Origin: Capniomyces stellatus
Taxonomy: Eukaryota; Kickxellomycota; Harpellomycetes; Harpellales; Legeriomycetaceae
Length of the DNA stretch: 64,000 bases
Reading direction: 5' to 3'
Assembly (NCBI GenBank): GCA_001661515.1
Contig: LUVW01000001.1
Coordinates: 1,769,374-1,833,373 of the forward strand
In this document: positions 5,552-57,274 of the stretch, piece after piece
Layout: each line of letters starts with the position of its first letter
How positions within the stretch are numbered: position 1 is the stretch's first letter
Made by a program: the position numbers and the translations under genes
The notes under the pieces: model-generated
What the model saw: only the letters and a program-made list of their open reading frames with translations
What the model was told of the DNA's origin: nothing
Databases searched by the model: none

Positions 5552-6799
5552 TCAGTTTTTCAAGTGGCGGCGGCAGAAACTATCGATTCTGTCAAATGCC
5601 TCATGAAGAATTTCTGGTGGTGGTGTGATGACAACTCTGAAACTGTTAGGGAAATCAAACAGTTCTCCAGGAAGAATCTCAACATGTTCCTCCCATTTGA
5701 GAGCATGGAACAGGTCATATCCGTTGCTAATCGAGTCATCAAACTTGTTGCAGTCCATAACAACCATTATGTACATTGCGCCCTGTGGGCGAATCGGCAC
5801 CAACCCTTCAATCGAATTAAGCCTGTCTTCGCAGATTCTGGCATTGACTTCAAGCTGCTTGTTGAGATTTGCAGCAAAATCTGGCGAAACTACCTTTGGG
5901 TCAAGAATTTTAGGAACTGCGTGTTGGATAATCGAGTTTGGTCCAATCAAAAGATTCACCAACGACCCTAGTCCCGCCTTGATCTGTTTAAATACGCCAA
6001 TAGGGTCGTGGACCGTTACCCATCCAACCCTCCATCCAGGCACCAAGTACTGCTTAGCCAAGCCACCGAGCGTCAAAACCGGAACCTGCTTTGATAGACT
6101 GGCAACTGGATAAAAGACCTCGCCGCTGAACACCATGTCGTCATAAATCTCGTCGCTGATAATAGGGATTTTGCGGGCTTCGCAGATTTTTAGGATTTCT
6201 TCAATATGTTCTTTGCTGAAATTGCTTCCGCAAGGGTTTGACGGGTTGTTTAACAGAACTGCTTTTGTCTTGGAATCAATAAGGGACTCCATTTGTTGCA
6301 AATCAACTTCCCATTGCTTTGAAGGCAGCAGGTTGTACTGTTTAAACTCAATTCCCTTTGACGCTATTACGGTCTTATAAAGAGGAAACCCTGGGTTTGG
6401 AATAAGAATGTTATCTCCCGCACTGGCAATAACATTAATAGCCAACTCTACTGCTCCTGAACACCCATTTGCCAAAAATACGTCAGACGCATCCAATTGG
6501 TACCCAGGTCTGCTGTACTTTGTCGCCACCGCCTTTCTGGCATCCTCTTTTCCTGCGGACGGCAAATATCCATTGCATTTATAACTAGTAAGTGATTCTT
6601 GAACTGCGCTCACAATCGCAGGATCTGTTTTGAAGTTTCCATACACTGTTGGGTCTCCCAATGAAAGGTTGACCAGGTCCTTGGTGCTTTCCTCTCCCTT
6701 CTGCACTGCCGATGCCCCTCCAAGCAACGCACGGATAGGATTCAAAGTATTTTGCGCTGAATCTGAAGATTCTATCTCATTCCAACCATTGACAGACAT
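5552..6799 (-). CDS. TAT: Tyrosine aminotransferase (PLP-dependent, class I)
   Basis: A 415-residue single-exon enzyme of the tyrosine aminotransferase group, which moves the amino group of tyrosine to 2-oxoglutarate as the first step of tyrosine breakdown. Visible motifs include NLSLGDPTVYGNF near the N-terminus, GYLPSAGKEDAR, NPGFPLY, NNPSNPCGSNF (the cofactor Asn), ISDEIYDDMVF (Asp and Tyr contacting PLP), GGLAKQYLVPGWRVGW carrying the Schiff-base Lys at about residue 247, and a C-terminal SFRVVIT with the carboxylate-binding Arg. The GGLAK-x4-PGWRxGW signature matches animal TAT more closely than typical fungal aromatic aminotransferases. The length is a little below human TAT (454) because the N-terminal extension is short. 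The ATG at 6799 is the first in frame. Likely cytosolic. Confidence 0.9.
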   Translation of the reverse strand: MSVNGWNEIESSDSAQNTLNPIRALLGGASAVQKGEESTKDLVNLSLGDPTVYGNFKTDPAIVSAVQESLTSYKCNGYLPSAGKEDARKAVATKYSRPGYQLDASDVFLANGCSGAVELAINVIASAGDNILIPNPGFPLYKTVIASKGIEFKQYNLLPSKQWEVDLQQMESLIDSKTKAVLLNNPSNPCGSNFSKEHIEEILKICEARKIPIISDEIYDDMVFSGEVFYPVASLSKQVPVLTLGGLAKQYLVPGWRVGWVTVHDPIGVFKQIKAGLGSLVNLLIGPNSIIQHAVPKILDPKVVSPDFAANLNKQLEVNARICEDRLNSIEGLVPIRPQGAMYIMVVMDCNKFDDSISNGYDLFHALKWEEHVEILPGELFDFPNSFRVVITPPPEILHEAFDRIDSFCRRHLKN

Positions 6800-37279: not shown

Positions 37280-38939
37280 CTATTTAGTGCTTGCTTTTCC
37301 CTTCTTTGTTGGTGTTTCCTTCTTTGCTGGTGTCTCTTTTTTAGCTGGTGTGGCTTTTTTGGCAGGAGTTTCTTTCTTTGCTGGGGTTTCTTTTTTAGCT
37401 GGGGTTTCTTTCTTTGCTGGTGTGGCTTTTTTTTCTACAACTTCTTTTTTGGCTGGAGTCTCTTTTTTGGCTGGTGTGGCTTTTTTGGCAGGAGTTTCTT
37501 TCTTTGGAGTTTCTTTCTTTGCGGGAGTTTCCTTTTTGGCTGGGGTGGCTTTCTTTACTGGAGTTTCTTTTTTGGCTGGAGTCTCTTTTTTAGCTGGTGT
37601 GGCCTTCTTTGGAGTCTCTTTCTTTGCGGGAGTTTCTTTTTTAGCTGGAGTTTCTTTTTTAGCTGGAGTTTCTTTTTTAGCTGGAGTTTCTTTTTTAGCT
37701 GGAGTTTCTTTTTTAGCTGGTGTGGCTTTCTTTGGGGTTTCTTTTTTTTCTACAACATCTTTTTTGGCCGGGGTTTCTTTCTTTGGAGTTTCTTTCTTTG
37801 CGGGAGTTTCCTTTTTGGCTGGGGTGGCTTTCTTTACTGGAGTTTCTTTTTTGGCTGGGGGAATAGCTGAAGCTTTGGCAGCAGCTTTGACGGCTGAGGC
37901 AACAGAAATTGGTTTTTTCACTGACTCAGTTTCAGTCTCAGTTTTAGTTTTAGTTTTAGTTTCGGTTTTGGATTTAGGAGTAGTTTTGGCTTTTTTAGCG
38001 GGAGATTCGGTTGAAGAATCGGCTGTAGATGCGGTATTGGAGCGTTTAGACTTTACTTTTTCGACATTTTCGACCTTTTCGACCTTTTCTTTTTTGGTGG
38101 AGGATTTATCGTCTTTGGAGGGAATTGGATTGATTGGTTCAAGAGAATTGTAGAATGGAAGTGCTACTGAATCGGCAGATTTGACCGATACGCTCTTGAC
38201 ATTTGCCCACTTCTTTGTGATTCTTTGGACGGTTTTCGAAAGAACAGTTTCAATGTTTTCGGCCAACTGAAGTGCCGAGTGCGAAGCTGACGATCCTACC
38301 TTGATTGCAATTGTCGATCCTGTCGCTGGAATAAAGTACGTCGAATTCAACGCCTTGTACAGCTCAGCCTTGATGTCTGGCTTTGTTATGTCGACAATCA
38401 CTGGCTGCTTCTTCTTTGAAAAGAACTTTTTTCCTATCAGCTTTGGAAGCATTGGCACTATTCTGTCGTCCACCATAAACACCCCATAAGAGTCCATCAA
38501 CATCCTCTTTGACTCGTATGTCTTGTACTTCTTTTTCAGCTCACTCACTCCCATCACCTCCTTCACAAACCCTACCTTCTTCTCCGCTATCTTCTCCTCA
38601 TAGCTCTCCTTTGGATCCTTTGTAAACAAACACACGTCTACTCCTTCCCCGTTCAATCCATGCTTCAACGCTATCCTAACCGGCTTCGTCTTCACCTTGT
38701 TTGGCACCGTCTTTGTCACTAATATCATCCACACCGCCTCATCATTATCCTCAAAAAGGTCCTTCTTTCCCTCTTTATTCCCCTCCTTTTGCACCTTTTC
38801 CAAATGCCCCAACAACGCTGTTGTCGCCTTCAATACCTACAAAAAATCACAATTTTATTTCCCCTTTATTTCCCTATTCCACACACTCTCTCTCCCACGT
38901 TTGTTTTCTATTTACTTACTTGTTCCTGATCTAAACTCA
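37280..38939 (-). CDS. RSL1D1: Ribosomal L1-domain nucleolar protein with AKKETP-repeat tail (RSL1D1/Cic1/Utp30-like)
   Basis: Two exons on the minus strand: 38939-38919 (MSLDQEQ) and 38836-37280, with an 82-bp GT-AG intron, 525 residues. Residues about 10-240 are a ribosomal L1-like domain: VWMILVTKTVPNKVKTKPVR, DVCLFTKDP, FMVDDRIVPMLPKLIGKKFF and STIAIKVGSSA. These are features of the RSL1D1/Utp30/Cic1 family, which acts in ribosome assembly. The remaining about 280 residues are Lys/Pro/Ala/Thr-rich and, after an acidic Ser/Thr stretch, consist of repeats of AKKETP and AKKATP. This resembles histone-H1-like or nucleolar basic tails and human RSL1D1's own Lys-rich tail. The conserved family start requires the short first exon. 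Confidence 0.85.
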
Positions 38940-46362: not shown

Positions 46363-48456
46363 ATGAAGCTCAAAAACGTCGTCTTAATTACCTACCTGGC
46401 TCTCGCAAAAGCAGAAAGCGTCCTCAACATTGACAACAATGGTATGAACGAACTTGATCTCCAAGGGAACAATGTCAACTACCTTGCTACAGAAGCTTAT
46501 GGGGACTATGATGAAGTCAAAGACAATTATGATGGTATACATAAATACAAACATAAGCATGGGTACAAGCATAAACACGGGCACAAACATAAGCACGGAC
46601 ACAAACACGGGCCTCTTCACAAACACAAACACAGACATGGAAAAATACACAGACATAAACATGGGCACGGAAACGGGTATGGCCACGGTAACGGGTATGG
46701 ATATGGGCATGGACACGGGCACGGAGGCGGATATGGGCACGGAAATGGGCACGGAAATGGGCACGGGCATGGAAACAAAAAAAAATGCAAAAAATTTTGC
46801 AAAACCAAGTCTGTGACAGTTAGAGGTACCGTGATTGTAACAAAAAATGTCACCAATGCCATGACCACCACTAAGACAGAAGTTGAGACCAAGCCAGTGA
46901 CGATCAACAACACCGTGGTTGTAACAGATAAGGTTACTACTGTTGAGACAAAGCCAGTGACAATCGACAACACCGTGGTTGTGACAAACAATGTCACCAA
47001 TGCCATGACCACCACTAAGACAGAGCAACTCTGGTTCGGTCACTGGATCAACAACACCGTGGTTGTAACAGATAAGGTTACTACTGTTGAGACAAAGCCA
47101 GTGACAATCGACAACACCGTGGTTGTGACAAACAATGTCACCAATGCCATGACCACCACTAAGACAGAAGTTGAGACCAAGCCAGTGACGATCAACAACA
47201 CCGTGGTTGTAACAGATAAGGTTACTACTGTTGAGACAAAGCCAGTGACAATCGACAACACCGTGGTTGTGACAAACAATGTCACCAATGCCATGACCAC
47301 CACTAAGACAGAGGTTGAGACCAAGCCAGTGACAATCAACAACACCGTGGTTGTAACAGATAAGGTTACTACTGTCGAGATAAAGCCTGTCACAACTGTT
47401 GAAACTGTAACACTCACACAATGTACTGGCAATGCCAGCGAAGAGTGTAAATGCCCAACCTTGCCAGCTGGTCAGGTTGAGAACAGACTGTTTTTGCCAA
47501 TAAACGTAGCACCATTGGAAAAGTTAGCAAACAGTCCATCTCTTTTGGTGTATGCTGATATTGAAGGTCCATTAAAGCAGTTAAGTGCTGGAACTAGAAA
47601 TGGAGACCCTGCGTCAATGGCGGCAAGTGTAAGTGCGGGACAAAATGGACTCAAGTATGGTTCAACCAGAATCAAAGAGTTCTTTGACGTGTTTATGGAA
47701 ACAGCCAAAAAATACGACGCCGAGTTCACCAAACAAGTAAAGACAGGAGGAGCCGAGATCAACAACAGCGCGACTCTAGCCAACAGAATTTCAACAAACA
47801 TCAAAAGTTTTGCTGGAAACGAAAAGGCCATTGCCAAGTTTGTATCTGATGTGTTCAGAGGAATGCACGAGAATGCAGAAGCTAGACTAGGAATGATTAA
47901 TTTCTTGCATTTGTCACTCGCAAAAATACAAGCAGAAACAAAGCCAACAGCCGCTCAGTTGGCTGCGCTTTCAGATGCTATTGACAACTTTGAGACTACC
48001 GTTAGCACAACCTATATTTGCAGAAAATCCTTTATGCCTACTAACGAAGACACCTCATTTGGAAAAATCATTACGGGCGCACTAAGCGGCGACAAAGCTA
48101 TAATTGACAAGTTGTTTAAAATAACGCTGTACTTGGCAAACAGAGATAGCGCTAGATTTGAAAGCGATTTGACCAAGGTTTTGACTGTATCAAGCACATA
48201 CACCAACTACATCACATTGGGTATTTATGACACGTATTCAATGGCTTCAGGAACATCAGTTTCATTGACCAACAACATCGTTGCACTCGGCAAGTACTTG
48301 GCTGAAAACAAGAGTGTGGTTGAGGCAGCTCTGTGTGCATATGCCAAGACATACAATTTGGGAAGAATTGATATTGTGGAATTTATCCTCAGATTGTTCC
48401 CAATATTGTTTGTAATGATGATTATGTTCTTACTTCCAATCTGCTGTTGTTGTTAA
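46363..48456 (+). CDS. Secreted or surface protein with His/Gly-rich and Thr/Val repeats
   Basis: A single-exon frame of 697 residues. Residues 1-17 form a signal peptide (MKLKNVVLITYLALAKAES). Residues about 62-145 are packed with His, Lys and Gly (HKHKHGHKHGP, GHGHGHGGGYGHGNGHGNGH) and could bind metal ions. After a Cys/Lys pair, residues about 155-350 consist of a 48-residue (144-bp) repeat: ETKPVTINNTVVVTDKVTTV, then ETKPVTIDNTVVVTNNVTNA and MTTTKTEV. It is Thr-rich with many N-x-T sites, as in cell-wall proteins. A folded, possibly helical domain of about 300 residues follows. The end is hydrophobic (FPILFVMMIMFLLPI) and finishes in four Cys, like a membrane or GPI-type tail. The second repeat copy holds an anomalous segment at 47026-47045. 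I do not recognise the family. Confidence 0.8.
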   Translation: MKLKNVVLITYLALAKAESVLNIDNNGMNELDLQGNNVNYLATEAYGDYDEVKDNYDGIHKYKHKHGYKHKHGHKHKHGHKHGPLHKHKHRHGKIHRHKHGHGNGYGHGNGYGYGHGHGHGGGYGHGNGHGNGHGHGNKKKCKKFCKTKSVTVRGTVIVTKNVTNAMTTTKTEVETKPVTINNTVVVTDKVTTVETKPVTIDNTVVVTNNVTNAMTTTKTEQLWFGHWINNTVVVTDKVTTVETKPVTIDNTVVVTNNVTNAMTTTKTEVETKPVTINNTVVVTDKVTTVETKPVTIDNTVVVTNNVTNAMTTTKTEVETKPVTINNTVVVTDKVTTVEIKPVTTVETVTLTQCTGNASEECKCPTLPAGQVENRLFLPINVAPLEKLANSPSLLVYADIEGPLKQLSAGTRNGDPASMAASVSAGQNGLKYGSTRIKEFFDVFMETAKKYDAEFTKQVKTGGAEINNSATLANRISTNIKSFAGNEKAIAKFVSDVFRGMHENAEARLGMINFLHLSLAKIQAETKPTAAQLAALSDAIDNFETTVSTTYICRKSFMPTNEDTSFGKIITGALSGDKAIIDKLFKITLYLANRDSARFESDLTKVLTVSSTYTNYITLGIYDTYSMASGTSVSLTNNIVALGKYLAENKSVVEAALCAYAKTYNLGRIDIVEFILRLFPILFVMMIMFLLPICCCC
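46882..47400 (+). repeat. 144-bp coding tandem repeat, four partial/full copies
   Basis: The start of the unit (GTTGAGACCAAGCCAGTGAC) falls at 46882, 47170 and 47314, exactly 144 bp apart with one slot between. That slot, 47026-47045, is occupied by the base-by-base complement of the same 20 bases. The remaining sequence of each unit is nearly identical among copies, which implies recent duplication. Confidence 0.95.
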
Positions 48457-49520: not shown

Positions 49521-50294
49521 ATGGACAGTACAGTGGGTAAAGCGTCAGCGACTGAAGACAGGTACTCGTACTTGGATAAAAATAGTGCGTTGAAGAAAAC
49601 CAAGGAGCATATGGAGTTGTATTCGTACAAGTATAGCACAAAGCAGCCAGAGAACATAAAAGAGGTATTTGAGCGCACCCATCAAACGGAAAAAGAGGCA
49701 TATATGATGATTTCCCCGCCAGAGGGCCAGCTTATGTCACTGCTTGTAAGCATGCAAAGGTCAAAAAAAGTGGTTGAGCTGGGATGTTTTGTTGGATACT
49801 CGGCGCTTTGGATTGCAGAGGGGCTTGCGCAAAACAATGAGGAGCCAGGCCACTTGTGGACCTGCGAGTTATCGCACCAATATGCAGAGCTTTCAAGAAG
49901 CAACATAGAAAAGGCAGGATACAAAGAGTACGTGACAGTTGTGGCTGAGCCTGCGCAAAACCTGCTGGATAGCTGGCCAAGTGACGAGAAAATCGACCTT
50001 GTGTTTATAGACGCCAACAAAGACGGGTATCTGAATTATTACAACACCATTTTGGACAGAGACTTGCTAGCACCAAATGGGGTGATGGTGGTTGATAACA
50101 CCCTGTTCTATGGTAAGGTCCATGTTCTAGACGATGAAAATGTCAAAATAGAGTCGGACCCAGCAAAGAAAAGGACCGAGGATTGGATTTATGAGTTCAA
50201 CGCAGCAGTCGCAAGGGATCCAAGAACAGAAAAGGTCATCCTGCCTTTGTTTGATGGACTCACAGTAATCAGAAAATCCAAAAGGGCCCAATAA
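49521..50294 (+). CDS. SAM-dependent O-methyltransferase (COMT/CCoAOMT-like, family 3)
   Basis: A single-exon, 257-residue enzyme of the class-I O-methyltransferase family that includes caffeoyl-CoA and catechol O-methyltransferases and animal COMTD1. Visible motifs are ISPPEGQLMSLLVSM, VVELGCFVGYSALWIAEGLA (SAM-binding motif I), VFIDANKDGYLNYYNTIL (metal-binding Asp) and NGVMVVDNTLFYGKV (second metal ligands D-N), ending LPLFDGLTVIRK. The reaction is methyl transfer from SAM to a catechol-like hydroxyl with Mg2+. The substrate cannot be read from the sequence. Length and motif order are those of a complete enzyme, with no signal peptide. Confidence 0.88.
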   Translation: MDSTVGKASATEDRYSYLDKNSALKKTKEHMELYSYKYSTKQPENIKEVFERTHQTEKEAYMMISPPEGQLMSLLVSMQRSKKVVELGCFVGYSALWIAEGLAQNNEEPGHLWTCELSHQYAELSRSNIEKAGYKEYVTVVAEPAQNLLDSWPSDEKIDLVFIDANKDGYLNYYNTILDRDLLAPNGVMVVDNTLFYGKVHVLDDENVKIESDPAKKRTEDWIYEFNAAVARDPRTEKVILPLFDGLTVIRKSKRAQ

Positions 50295-50510: not shown

Positions 50511-53500
50511 CTAGGTGATGTACTCGTAAAATACACTGTCGCTATCAGCAGCGCTTTCGCTAGAGCCGGCATTGTTGTCAATGCTGCTGCCACGTTGCAA
50601 ATAGTCACGGTCAATTAAAGACTCGATACGGATTTTGAAATCCAGGTTGTCAACTCTGTAGCCAATCAAGTTGAACAATGCAGATTTCAAGTTTGTATGC
50701 GTTAGTTGGCGGTGGTGTTTCATAATCCGCACAATTGCAGCATCAATTTTGTAAATCTGGTCTTGTTGAATTTTGCCTGCTTTGTGTTGGCTGTTTTCCT
50801 GGTCAGAATCCAATGCATCATTGCAACCTAAACCAGAGGTGCCATTTTCGTTGTCATTATCATTTTCGTTATCATTGGGATTCATCTTTCCATCTTCAGT
50901 TTCCATGTCAACATCGTCAATTTCATTATCATTATTTTTGGCTGAGCCTGGGGTTGATTGGCTTTGACTGGACCCAGGATGCTGAATTGACGGGTTTGAG
51001 TTTGACTTGATCCTTTTTCTGGAGTTGCTTAGGTTTGTGGTGTAGTTTACGCCACCAGCAGCGTTTGAGCCCTTAGCACCACTGGAAGAGCCAGATTGTG
51101 AGGCTGGTAGTTGGTTGATTTTCAACCTATACAGGCTCTTGAGCGTAGGGTTTGATATTTCGTCAATACAGTTTTCGTTAAAGGAGAAAACATCGGACTC
51201 AGTTATTGAATTAGAGTTTGGAAGCTTGTTCAGGAGCTTGATTTTACCGGTGCACAAAGACAAGAGAGTGCGGTTCATTAGCTCTTTGTCTTGGGTCTGA
51301 GTCAGTTTCAGTATCTCCTTGCAGTTCAAGTTCTGGACAGTTGAAGACTTTGTAAAGAGAAGCAAAACAGCAGCCTGGCACTGGCTAACAACAAACTCTC
51401 TTTTCCCGTAAACAGGAAACTCGGTTGTCAAAATCACATTTCCTAGATTGGCCAGCCATTGGAGTTTTCTCCCATTGTGTAAATTGACGTAGAAATCGTT
51501 GAATTTATCCAAAATAGACTGCATTTCGTTTGGCATGGCTATTTTGGTTGGGGTGTAAGTTGGCCAAAAGTTCTGGGACAAAACGTTTACGCTAAAGTCA
51601 CAATCAGAATTTTTCCTTGACTTGTTGTTGAACTCGTTGGTTAATTGGCTAGAAATCGTAATGTCTCTTAGCATGCCTTCAAGCTTGTTTGTAAACTCGG
51701 ACCCGCATTCGGTTTTCAGCTTAAACAGCAGCAGACGTTCTGAGTCTCTGCTGGCGGATTTGTTTAAAATGAGTCTTTTTGCCATATCTCTTTTGTAGAA
51801 ATTCTCAAAGTCAATTTTGCTACTCAAGAACCTAAACAGCTTCAAAACCTTGTCAAAAATTTCGCCGTCTTTTCCACCCCTCTCATCATCAGTACTGTTT
51901 ACGTTTCTCAGCTTTTCGTCCAAATATCTTGCCATCAGCTTTGACAACCTGGTCTGCTGCAGGTTTATTATCGCCTCAAATGACTCGGTTAGGCTGTGGT
52001 TGAACTGCTCGTTTCCTTTGAAACTTCTCGCCAATATATTGCTCACCTTGTCCAAAAACTTTATCAGGTCTGAAATCATTGTTTTCTCTCCGTTTACTCT
52101 TGTGACAATTGCTATGCCTGTCCTTTTGACGTACAGCTGGTAAAACTGCTTCAGTTCCCTCTGCTTTTTCACCAGCTGAACCATCGAATAGACTTTTTCC
52201 AACTCTTCAATTCTGTTCCTCTCCATCATTTCACTAAATCCGTGTCCTAAAACCACGCCTGACTTGTTGGTGATCATTTCCTCGTGGACTATTTTTATCA
52301 ACTGCTTTCGGCTGCTTTCCCCCAAATACTTTTTGATCCTCGACTCCTCCTCCAAAATCCGCTTCTCCACCTGTTTAAAGTATCTCCCCACCACCGTATC
52401 TCTGTCTCCAACAATCTCCTCCCTCTTCTCTGTAGCACCCCCAAGTTCCGTGTCTTTCATTTCCGCTTCTTTAAGTCGCAGTTCTTGTTTCATTGACCCT
52501 ACTAATTCATCTGCCTCTTTTCTGTAGTACTCTCTGCTGCTTTCCATGAATTCTCCCTCAAATTTACCCTGGTATATTCCCAACTCTTGAAACATCCCCA
52601 CCAACTCCTTGACCATTTCTTGCCACATATACTCGCCATCCCTTTCACTCTTTATTGCCCACAACAACCCAGCTTTTAATCTCTCAAACACCCTTTTTAC
52701 CAGATTCTCTTGTTTTTTTACCACGTCTAGCCCCATTTCCCTATTAATTATCGCCACAGAACTTGTATTACTACTCAGCCTTTATCATACTCTACTTTTT
52801 ATTATTATCTCGACTATCTAACCCTATTCCCTTCCGCCCAACAATTATATCGCTACTATATTTCCAATTCTCTTTAATAATAACAATATAATAAAACCAA
52901 TCTAATTACCAAATCGACAACAATCCTACAGTATGGATAACATATGTCCTGTCCAAATACATGAACACCGACCTAACCGTACCCTATTTGCTCCACATCC
53001 AACACAGTACATTGTTACTCAAAGAATCAAGGCTCAAATATCACCATCTCTATACTAACTCTACTAAACCTACCAACTTTAACGTATATCGCTTCCAAAA
53101 CTCAACCATTGAACCCAAAACCTTCTCATTCTCCTCGCCACTGCGTTGTACATTTTATATCCATTTATAACCATTTTATTCACACATTACATTCCAAATA
53201 TTACCACGCTCACTTAAAAGTCTATTCATTTCCCATCCTTTTCTATTTCCCCAGCTCGCTATATCTTTATTCATTCATTTATTTGTTTTTTGCTGTTTCT
53301 ACTTTGCTTCATGCCTACCTCTTTTCCATCAACTTCTCGCTTTCAAGTCGAATGTACTCTTTAATTTCTGCCTTTAGCTCCTCGTAAATCTTCATCCACT
53401 TTCCCTTTAGACACAGTACTTCGCAATCCTACTTTTTTATTTTATTTTCTTACATTTAAATTTGCACTCCAACTTTAATATCTATTTTTATGGCACATTT

Positions 53501-56304: not shown

Positions 56305-57204
56305 TATCTCGACTTTAAGACCAGTCAAACAATAATGTAACCGTCTTTTACTAACCAGCAGTATCCAGTAACAACTGACTTTAAAACGGTAAACTCACCG
56401 AATCGCTGATTGCTATAATAAATAGTTTATAAATTACCCTAACCTCGATTAGGTGGTAACCTTCAAGAAAATATATTTAAAAAAACAAGAGACTTTTTAC
56501 GGCTCTTGATATAAATTAATGACCAGATATTAGATTAAAGGATATATCAATGTTATGTTGCTTAAGAGTTGTGCTGTACAGGTATTTATCTCCCTCGGGC
56601 CTTGGTATCAGAAATCATACTCGTCAAGCCTTGTGTTTGGTAAATCTCAAGTACCCAAAAGCTCTCTCAAAAACTCCATTCCCAAAAAACCCAAAACCCG
56701 AAACCCACTCCTAAAGGCCCAAACCCCAAAAACCCAAAGCATAATCTGATGAGGGTCAAAGCAGTCTCACGGCCACACCATGCTGTTTTCTGTTTGCTAG
56801 AAACCAGTCAAATAATATTTTGGTTGGTCAGAATGGAATCAACCCAAAAAAAGAACTGTACTGATGATACTGTTCCGCCATTGTTCCAGCCAGGACAAAA
56901 TCCATCAGAAAACCCTGGCATACTCTGAATACTTTGTCCCCAGAATATAGCATAAATCTATTCAAAGGTTCAACAACAATGATTCCAGTAAAAAATAAAG
57001 AAAATCTATAAACAACCAGAATCGAAGCAATAAACAATCGAATGGCTGCTACAAATGCTGATTTTATCACAGTCGGGATATGCACATATAGCACACTTAC
57101 AGAAATGCGGGTTGATACAATATTTCTAGATCTGGCAGCGTCTCGCTCTTCTATTGGATTTTCAATATTTATTTGTTGGTCTCACTCTATTATTTTTAAA
57201 AAAA

Positions 57205-57274
57205 TGGTTTGGTGTTGATGTTGGTGTTGATGTTGGTGTTGGTTTGGTGTTGGTGTTGGTTTGGTGTTGGTGTT
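57205..57274. repeat. TTGGTG-based minisatellite
   Basis: Repeated TTGGTGTTGATG units pass into TTGGTGTTGGTTTGG units. Confidence 0.85.

Follow-up and report, generated by a model that had tools for sequence, protein, structure and literature searches.

Three known kinds of change in a DNA sequence, or in its written record, come close to the one analysed here. In tandem-repeat misassembly, by collapse or by false join, an array holds long identical blocks and two copy contexts meet at a block that they share. This much is alike at our locus. However, after an ordinary false join the letters of the overlap are normal, whereas here the overlap is complemented without being reversed, a change that we call a flip. 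A micro-inversion likewise swaps a short internal segment, in place and with its length kept, for letters derived from its complement, but it yields the reverse complement, which a flip does not. The third is the decoding error of SOLiD sequencing, in which an unreversed complement is possible between two colour errors. SOLiD colours are identical for a sequence and for its unreversed complement, and two wrong border colours flip everything that lies between them. Errors of this type should also give the two other constant letter swaps (A<>C/G<>T and A<>G/C<>T); in contrast, the flanked runs described below show none.

Results

The window, by which we mean the entire 64,000-nt stretch that was analysed, comes from a 59-contig assembly with a total length of 24,510,316 bases, where it occupies C1:1769374-1833373. 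On its plus strand it carries a 144-bp tandem array of 3.9 copies (46828..47395). The repeat unit starts with GTTGAGACCAAGCCAGTGAC at 46882, 47170 and 47314, so that the normal block occupies 46882..46901 in copy 1, 47170..47189 in copy 3 and 47314..47333 in copy 4, all on the plus strand. At 47026..47045 of the same strand the array reads CAACTCTGGTTCGGTCACTG, which is the unreversed complement of GTTGAGACCAAGCCAGTGAC at 20 of 20 positions. The flip is exactly 20 bp long and brings no change in length. Over all 144 columns, copies 1 and 3 are identical; between copy 1 and the flipped copy, the differences are confined to the 20 flipped columns and the last column of the unit. An exact search of the 64,000-nt window found neither the reverse complement nor the mirror of the unit start. 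The original prediction, that the block at 47026-47045 is a 20/20 unreversed and not a reverse complement, is confirmed by this search, and an inversion or micro-inversion was rejected on the absence of the reverse complement from the window.

The array lies within a plus-strand open reading frame of 697 codons (46363..48456). As had been predicted, this frame stays open through the flip, where VETKPVTI is read as QLWFGHWI. Judged by eye from its hydrophobic N-terminus, the product is secreted-looking; it has a His/Gly-rich part and V/T-rich repeats, and it matched no Pfam family above the cut-off. Searches with the flocculin, Rpb1 repeat and PIR families also gave no match, but they gave none in the control genomes either and are thus uninformative. 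Three paralogs were seen, at 46363-48456 of the window, at about 85000-87000 of C58 and at about 483700 of C16. Those of the window and of C58 have in common, by eye, a hydrophobic tail with four Cys at the end. As to the reading of such frames, CTG codons stand at Leu-fitting contexts in window 5552-6799, 49521-50294, 37280-38728 and 50511-52736 (by eye), which suggests that CTG is translated as Leu in this genome.

The parent assembly matches window 46820-47420 at 100% identity, flip included. In an exact search of the 24.5-Mb assembly, the flipped 20-mer gave one forward and no reverse matches. Because the parent assembly has the flip and the 20-mer is unique there, the flip is not peculiar to the window, and it was not copied in from another part of the assembly. 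Two candidate explanations were rejected on these grounds: an edit confined to the window, as the parent assembly carries the flip, and a transposed copy, as the 20-mer is otherwise absent, as an exact match, from the 24.5 Mb. Public viral contigs scanned for the flipped 20-mer gave no match, although the viral set is uninformative for a yeast-like genome; from its proteins and composition, we took the organism to be an ascomycete yeast.

We examined the borders of the flip by comparing its flanks with those of the other copies. The 180 bp to the left (46846..47025) match those preceding copy 4 (47134-47313) without a difference, while agreement with the left flanks of copies 1 and 3 is 0 bp. 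The 123 bp to the right (47046..47168) are the same as those that follow copies 1 and 3, and agreement with copy 4 is 0 bp. The block is thus bounded by a variant on each side. At 47025 there is a G, as before copy 4, where copies 1 and 3 are preceded by A; at 47046 there is a G, as after copies 1 and 3, where copy 4 is followed by A.

A search for further unreversed-complement runs in the genome had been proposed along with the original prediction, and with about 1.1% of the assembly scanned it yielded a second case, at C58:103769-103817. This flip is 49 bp long, is a pure complement and lies in register in a tandem array of 18-bp units; its letters are those of the copies at 103481 and 104075, complemented. 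Its left flank has 72 bp in common with the copy at 104075 and 0 with that at 103481; its right flank has 239 bp in common with the copy at 103481 and 0 with that at 104075. At all four borders of the two flips, the bounding variant is A/G. These flank agreements mean that each flip is the longest exact block common to two kinds of copy, at the place where the assembly switches from one context to the other. When a block of equal length was slid along the array, this bounded-block property was found in 1 of 124 placements in the window array and in 1 of 240 in the C58 array, and in both cases that placement was the flip itself. This border match is the decisive point in favour of an assembly join. 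The flip had earlier been treated as an isolated event; the observation is correct, but the flip is not single, since there are at least two in the assembly. The C58 stretch was picked for its paralog of the window gene, and for this reason the two cases give no genome-wide rate.

The C58 flip also bears on a long reading frame. On the minus strand there is a frame of 1,247 codons, a figure that counts two internal stops and the terminal stop. Those two are its only internal stops, and both lie inside the 49 flipped bases, with 931 open codons before the flip and 304 after it. On the plus strand, a frame of 468 codons is open through the same 49 bp. We take the minus strand to be the coding one, since it has by far the longer frame and, by eye, that frame starts like a signal peptide; whether the flip would break a gene depends on this choice of strand. 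The breaking of the long frame, with nothing else nearby, would look like an error, though a real mutation could do likewise. The minus-strand frame (C58:102858-106596) encodes a secreted-looking protein in which we saw, by eye, three copies of the motif (I/S)EYR.LTQ.N. Each of them ends in a basic pair (KK, RK and KR), and the protein is reminiscent of Kex2-processed repeat proteins.

These observations bear on whether someone wrote the change into the sequence. A deliberate edit, or a planted test sequence, would suit a flip of a round 20 bp placed within the given window, and the copy of the assembly that we searched could itself be edited. However, the flip is present in the parent assembly too, a second one of 49 bp lies outside the window on another contig, and both end exactly at bases that vary between copies, which is unlikely to be an editor's choice. 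We therefore regard an edit as very unlikely. The original prediction had placed a sequence-handling error and a deliberate edit side by side as the likeliest causes. The first is supported by the maximal-overlap borders, the recurrence on C58 and the stops in an otherwise open frame; the same borders, recurrence and C58 stops make the second unlikely.

The borders alone would also be expected of a real recombination event between repeats. In a junction formed by single-strand annealing or unequal crossover, annealing would extend in each direction until the first mismatch was reached, which is where the flips end, and the annealed interval would have had its strands exchanged base by base. 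Only the complementing excludes recombination. Polymerases and ligases work on antiparallel strands, so they would not produce an unreversed complement, and the C58 flip puts stops into a long frame. We know of no process that sets a complement in the same 5'-3' order. A genuine junction of this type is therefore improbable in the extreme, and we give scarcely any credence to the broader proposal that a real process in this organism marks repeat-recombination junctions with the unreversed complement of the exact shared block.

We scanned parts of the assembly for flips and for the other letter swaps in two ways. The first was an exact-match search without a flank condition, over 274,032 ACGT bases, which make up about 1.1% of the assembly, and with a complexity filter. 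It gave 14 unreversed-complement matches of at least 20 bp, all of them from the window array and the C58 array. This bears out the earlier claim that chance agreement is negligible, and a chance origin of the 20/20 complement in the window is negligible. At a threshold of at least 17 bp there were 30 filtered complement matches, 24 in the two arrays and 6 elsewhere (17-19 bp). In the same 274,032 bases, neither the A<>C/G<>T nor the A<>G/C<>T swap gave a filtered match of at least 17 bp. After filtering, 11 mirror matches of at least 17 bp were left, and the only one of at least 20 bp was a simple repeat. The unfiltered totals at this threshold were 502 for the complement, 266 for A<>C/G<>T, 232 for A<>G/C<>T and 880 for the mirror, the remainder having been removed as low-complexity.

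The second scan compared copies in register and looked for runs where a single constant letter swap turns one copy into the other. In its flanked form, with N excluded, it covered 284,598 bases, which are the same assembly stretches plus L032, L039 and L040. Flanked runs of at least 6 bp gave four rows in these 284,598 bases, all from the two flips and both pure complement; runs of that length for the A<>C/G<>T or the A<>G/C<>T swap numbered 0. With any flanks allowed, the complement accounted for 14 in-register runs of 8-16 bp and for 5 of at least 17 bp; each of the remaining two swaps had 1 run in the shorter class and 0 in the longer.

The scanned stretches include seven arrays that are at least 200 bp long and have a period of at least 10; two of the seven contain a flip, and none was found in the other five. 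Nor was one found in a polyubiquitin array of four copies, alike at 213 to 216 of 216 bases in pairwise comparison. No more of them turned up in the C2-C6 stretches, the C16 paralog locus or another 6 kb of C58. Thus, the error that produced the flips is not general.

The scans bear directly on colour-space decoding. If an error in decoding SOLiD two-base colours had produced the flip, the colours of the flipped copy should agree with those of a normal copy except near the borders, and compared with copy 1 they differ at three places only (-2, -1 and 19). The flip itself needs two such differences, and the neighbouring A/G variant explains the extra one. However, random colour errors should yield the three swaps equally, and both flips are complements, with the other swaps at 0 in flanked runs; this outcome is weak on its own, as it would be met about 1 time in 9 with 2 cases. 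Furthermore, had the colours of different copies been mixed at the bounding A/G variants, an A<>G/C<>T swap would be expected, and a complement is seen. There is also no sign of colour-space data behind the assembly. We consider a decoding error of this sort highly improbable. We also considered whether the flip follows the byte boundaries of a file packed at 2 bits per base, and dropped this as a weak idea; calculated by hand from the contig coordinates, neither its start nor its end lies a multiple of 4 bases away from one of the ends of the contig.

Discussion

We conclude that the 20-bp flip is very probably an assembly artefact that arose when an overlap was joined with letters of the opposite strand, and is not biology. 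The evidence for this reading comes entirely from the assembly sequence and comprises two cases in about 1.1% of it. Two contig or fill-in ends would have been joined inside a tandem array through an exact overlap, of 20 bp in the window and 49 bp on C58, and a program would then have written the overlap columns with opposite-strand bases in plus-strand order. The slip may have consisted in reading a reverse-complemented string backwards; alternatively, minus-strand bases may have been placed in the right columns without being complemented. We observe directly how the flips are bounded and that they recur, and from this we infer the join step, the strand slip and the program at fault. A join inside the array would make the copy number at the join doubtful.

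Other features of the assembly deserve mention. The shortest of its N runs is 1 base and the longest, with adjoining stretches summed, about 16.6 kb; such runs would be expected of a scaffolded assembly, but withheld stretches read N too. In the fetched stretches (L003-L015, L018, L020 and L025), 8 of 11 N runs touch a poly-C/poly-G tract of about 14 or more bases on at least one side, as counted by eye after runs across adjoining loci had been merged, and long C/G homopolymers seem to be where the assembly breaks. Separately, a stretch of ~738 bp at window 56514-57250 recurs 12 kb downstream, at C1:1837856-1838593, with 99% identity. The search showed only these two places, and the second copy, which ends exactly where the ~16.6-kb N run begins, is possibly a redundant contig end.

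The signature of this artefact is sharp and machine-testable, in that it is an in-register, pure-complement run bounded by variants between copies, and self-comparison could screen any assembly for such flips. For the present assembly, one long frame, on C58, seems to be falsely broken by a flip, and the copy numbers of both affected arrays are not to be trusted. Were the flips real biology, the antiparallel rule of DNA copying would be broken in this organism; hence the value of showing that they are very probably an artefact.
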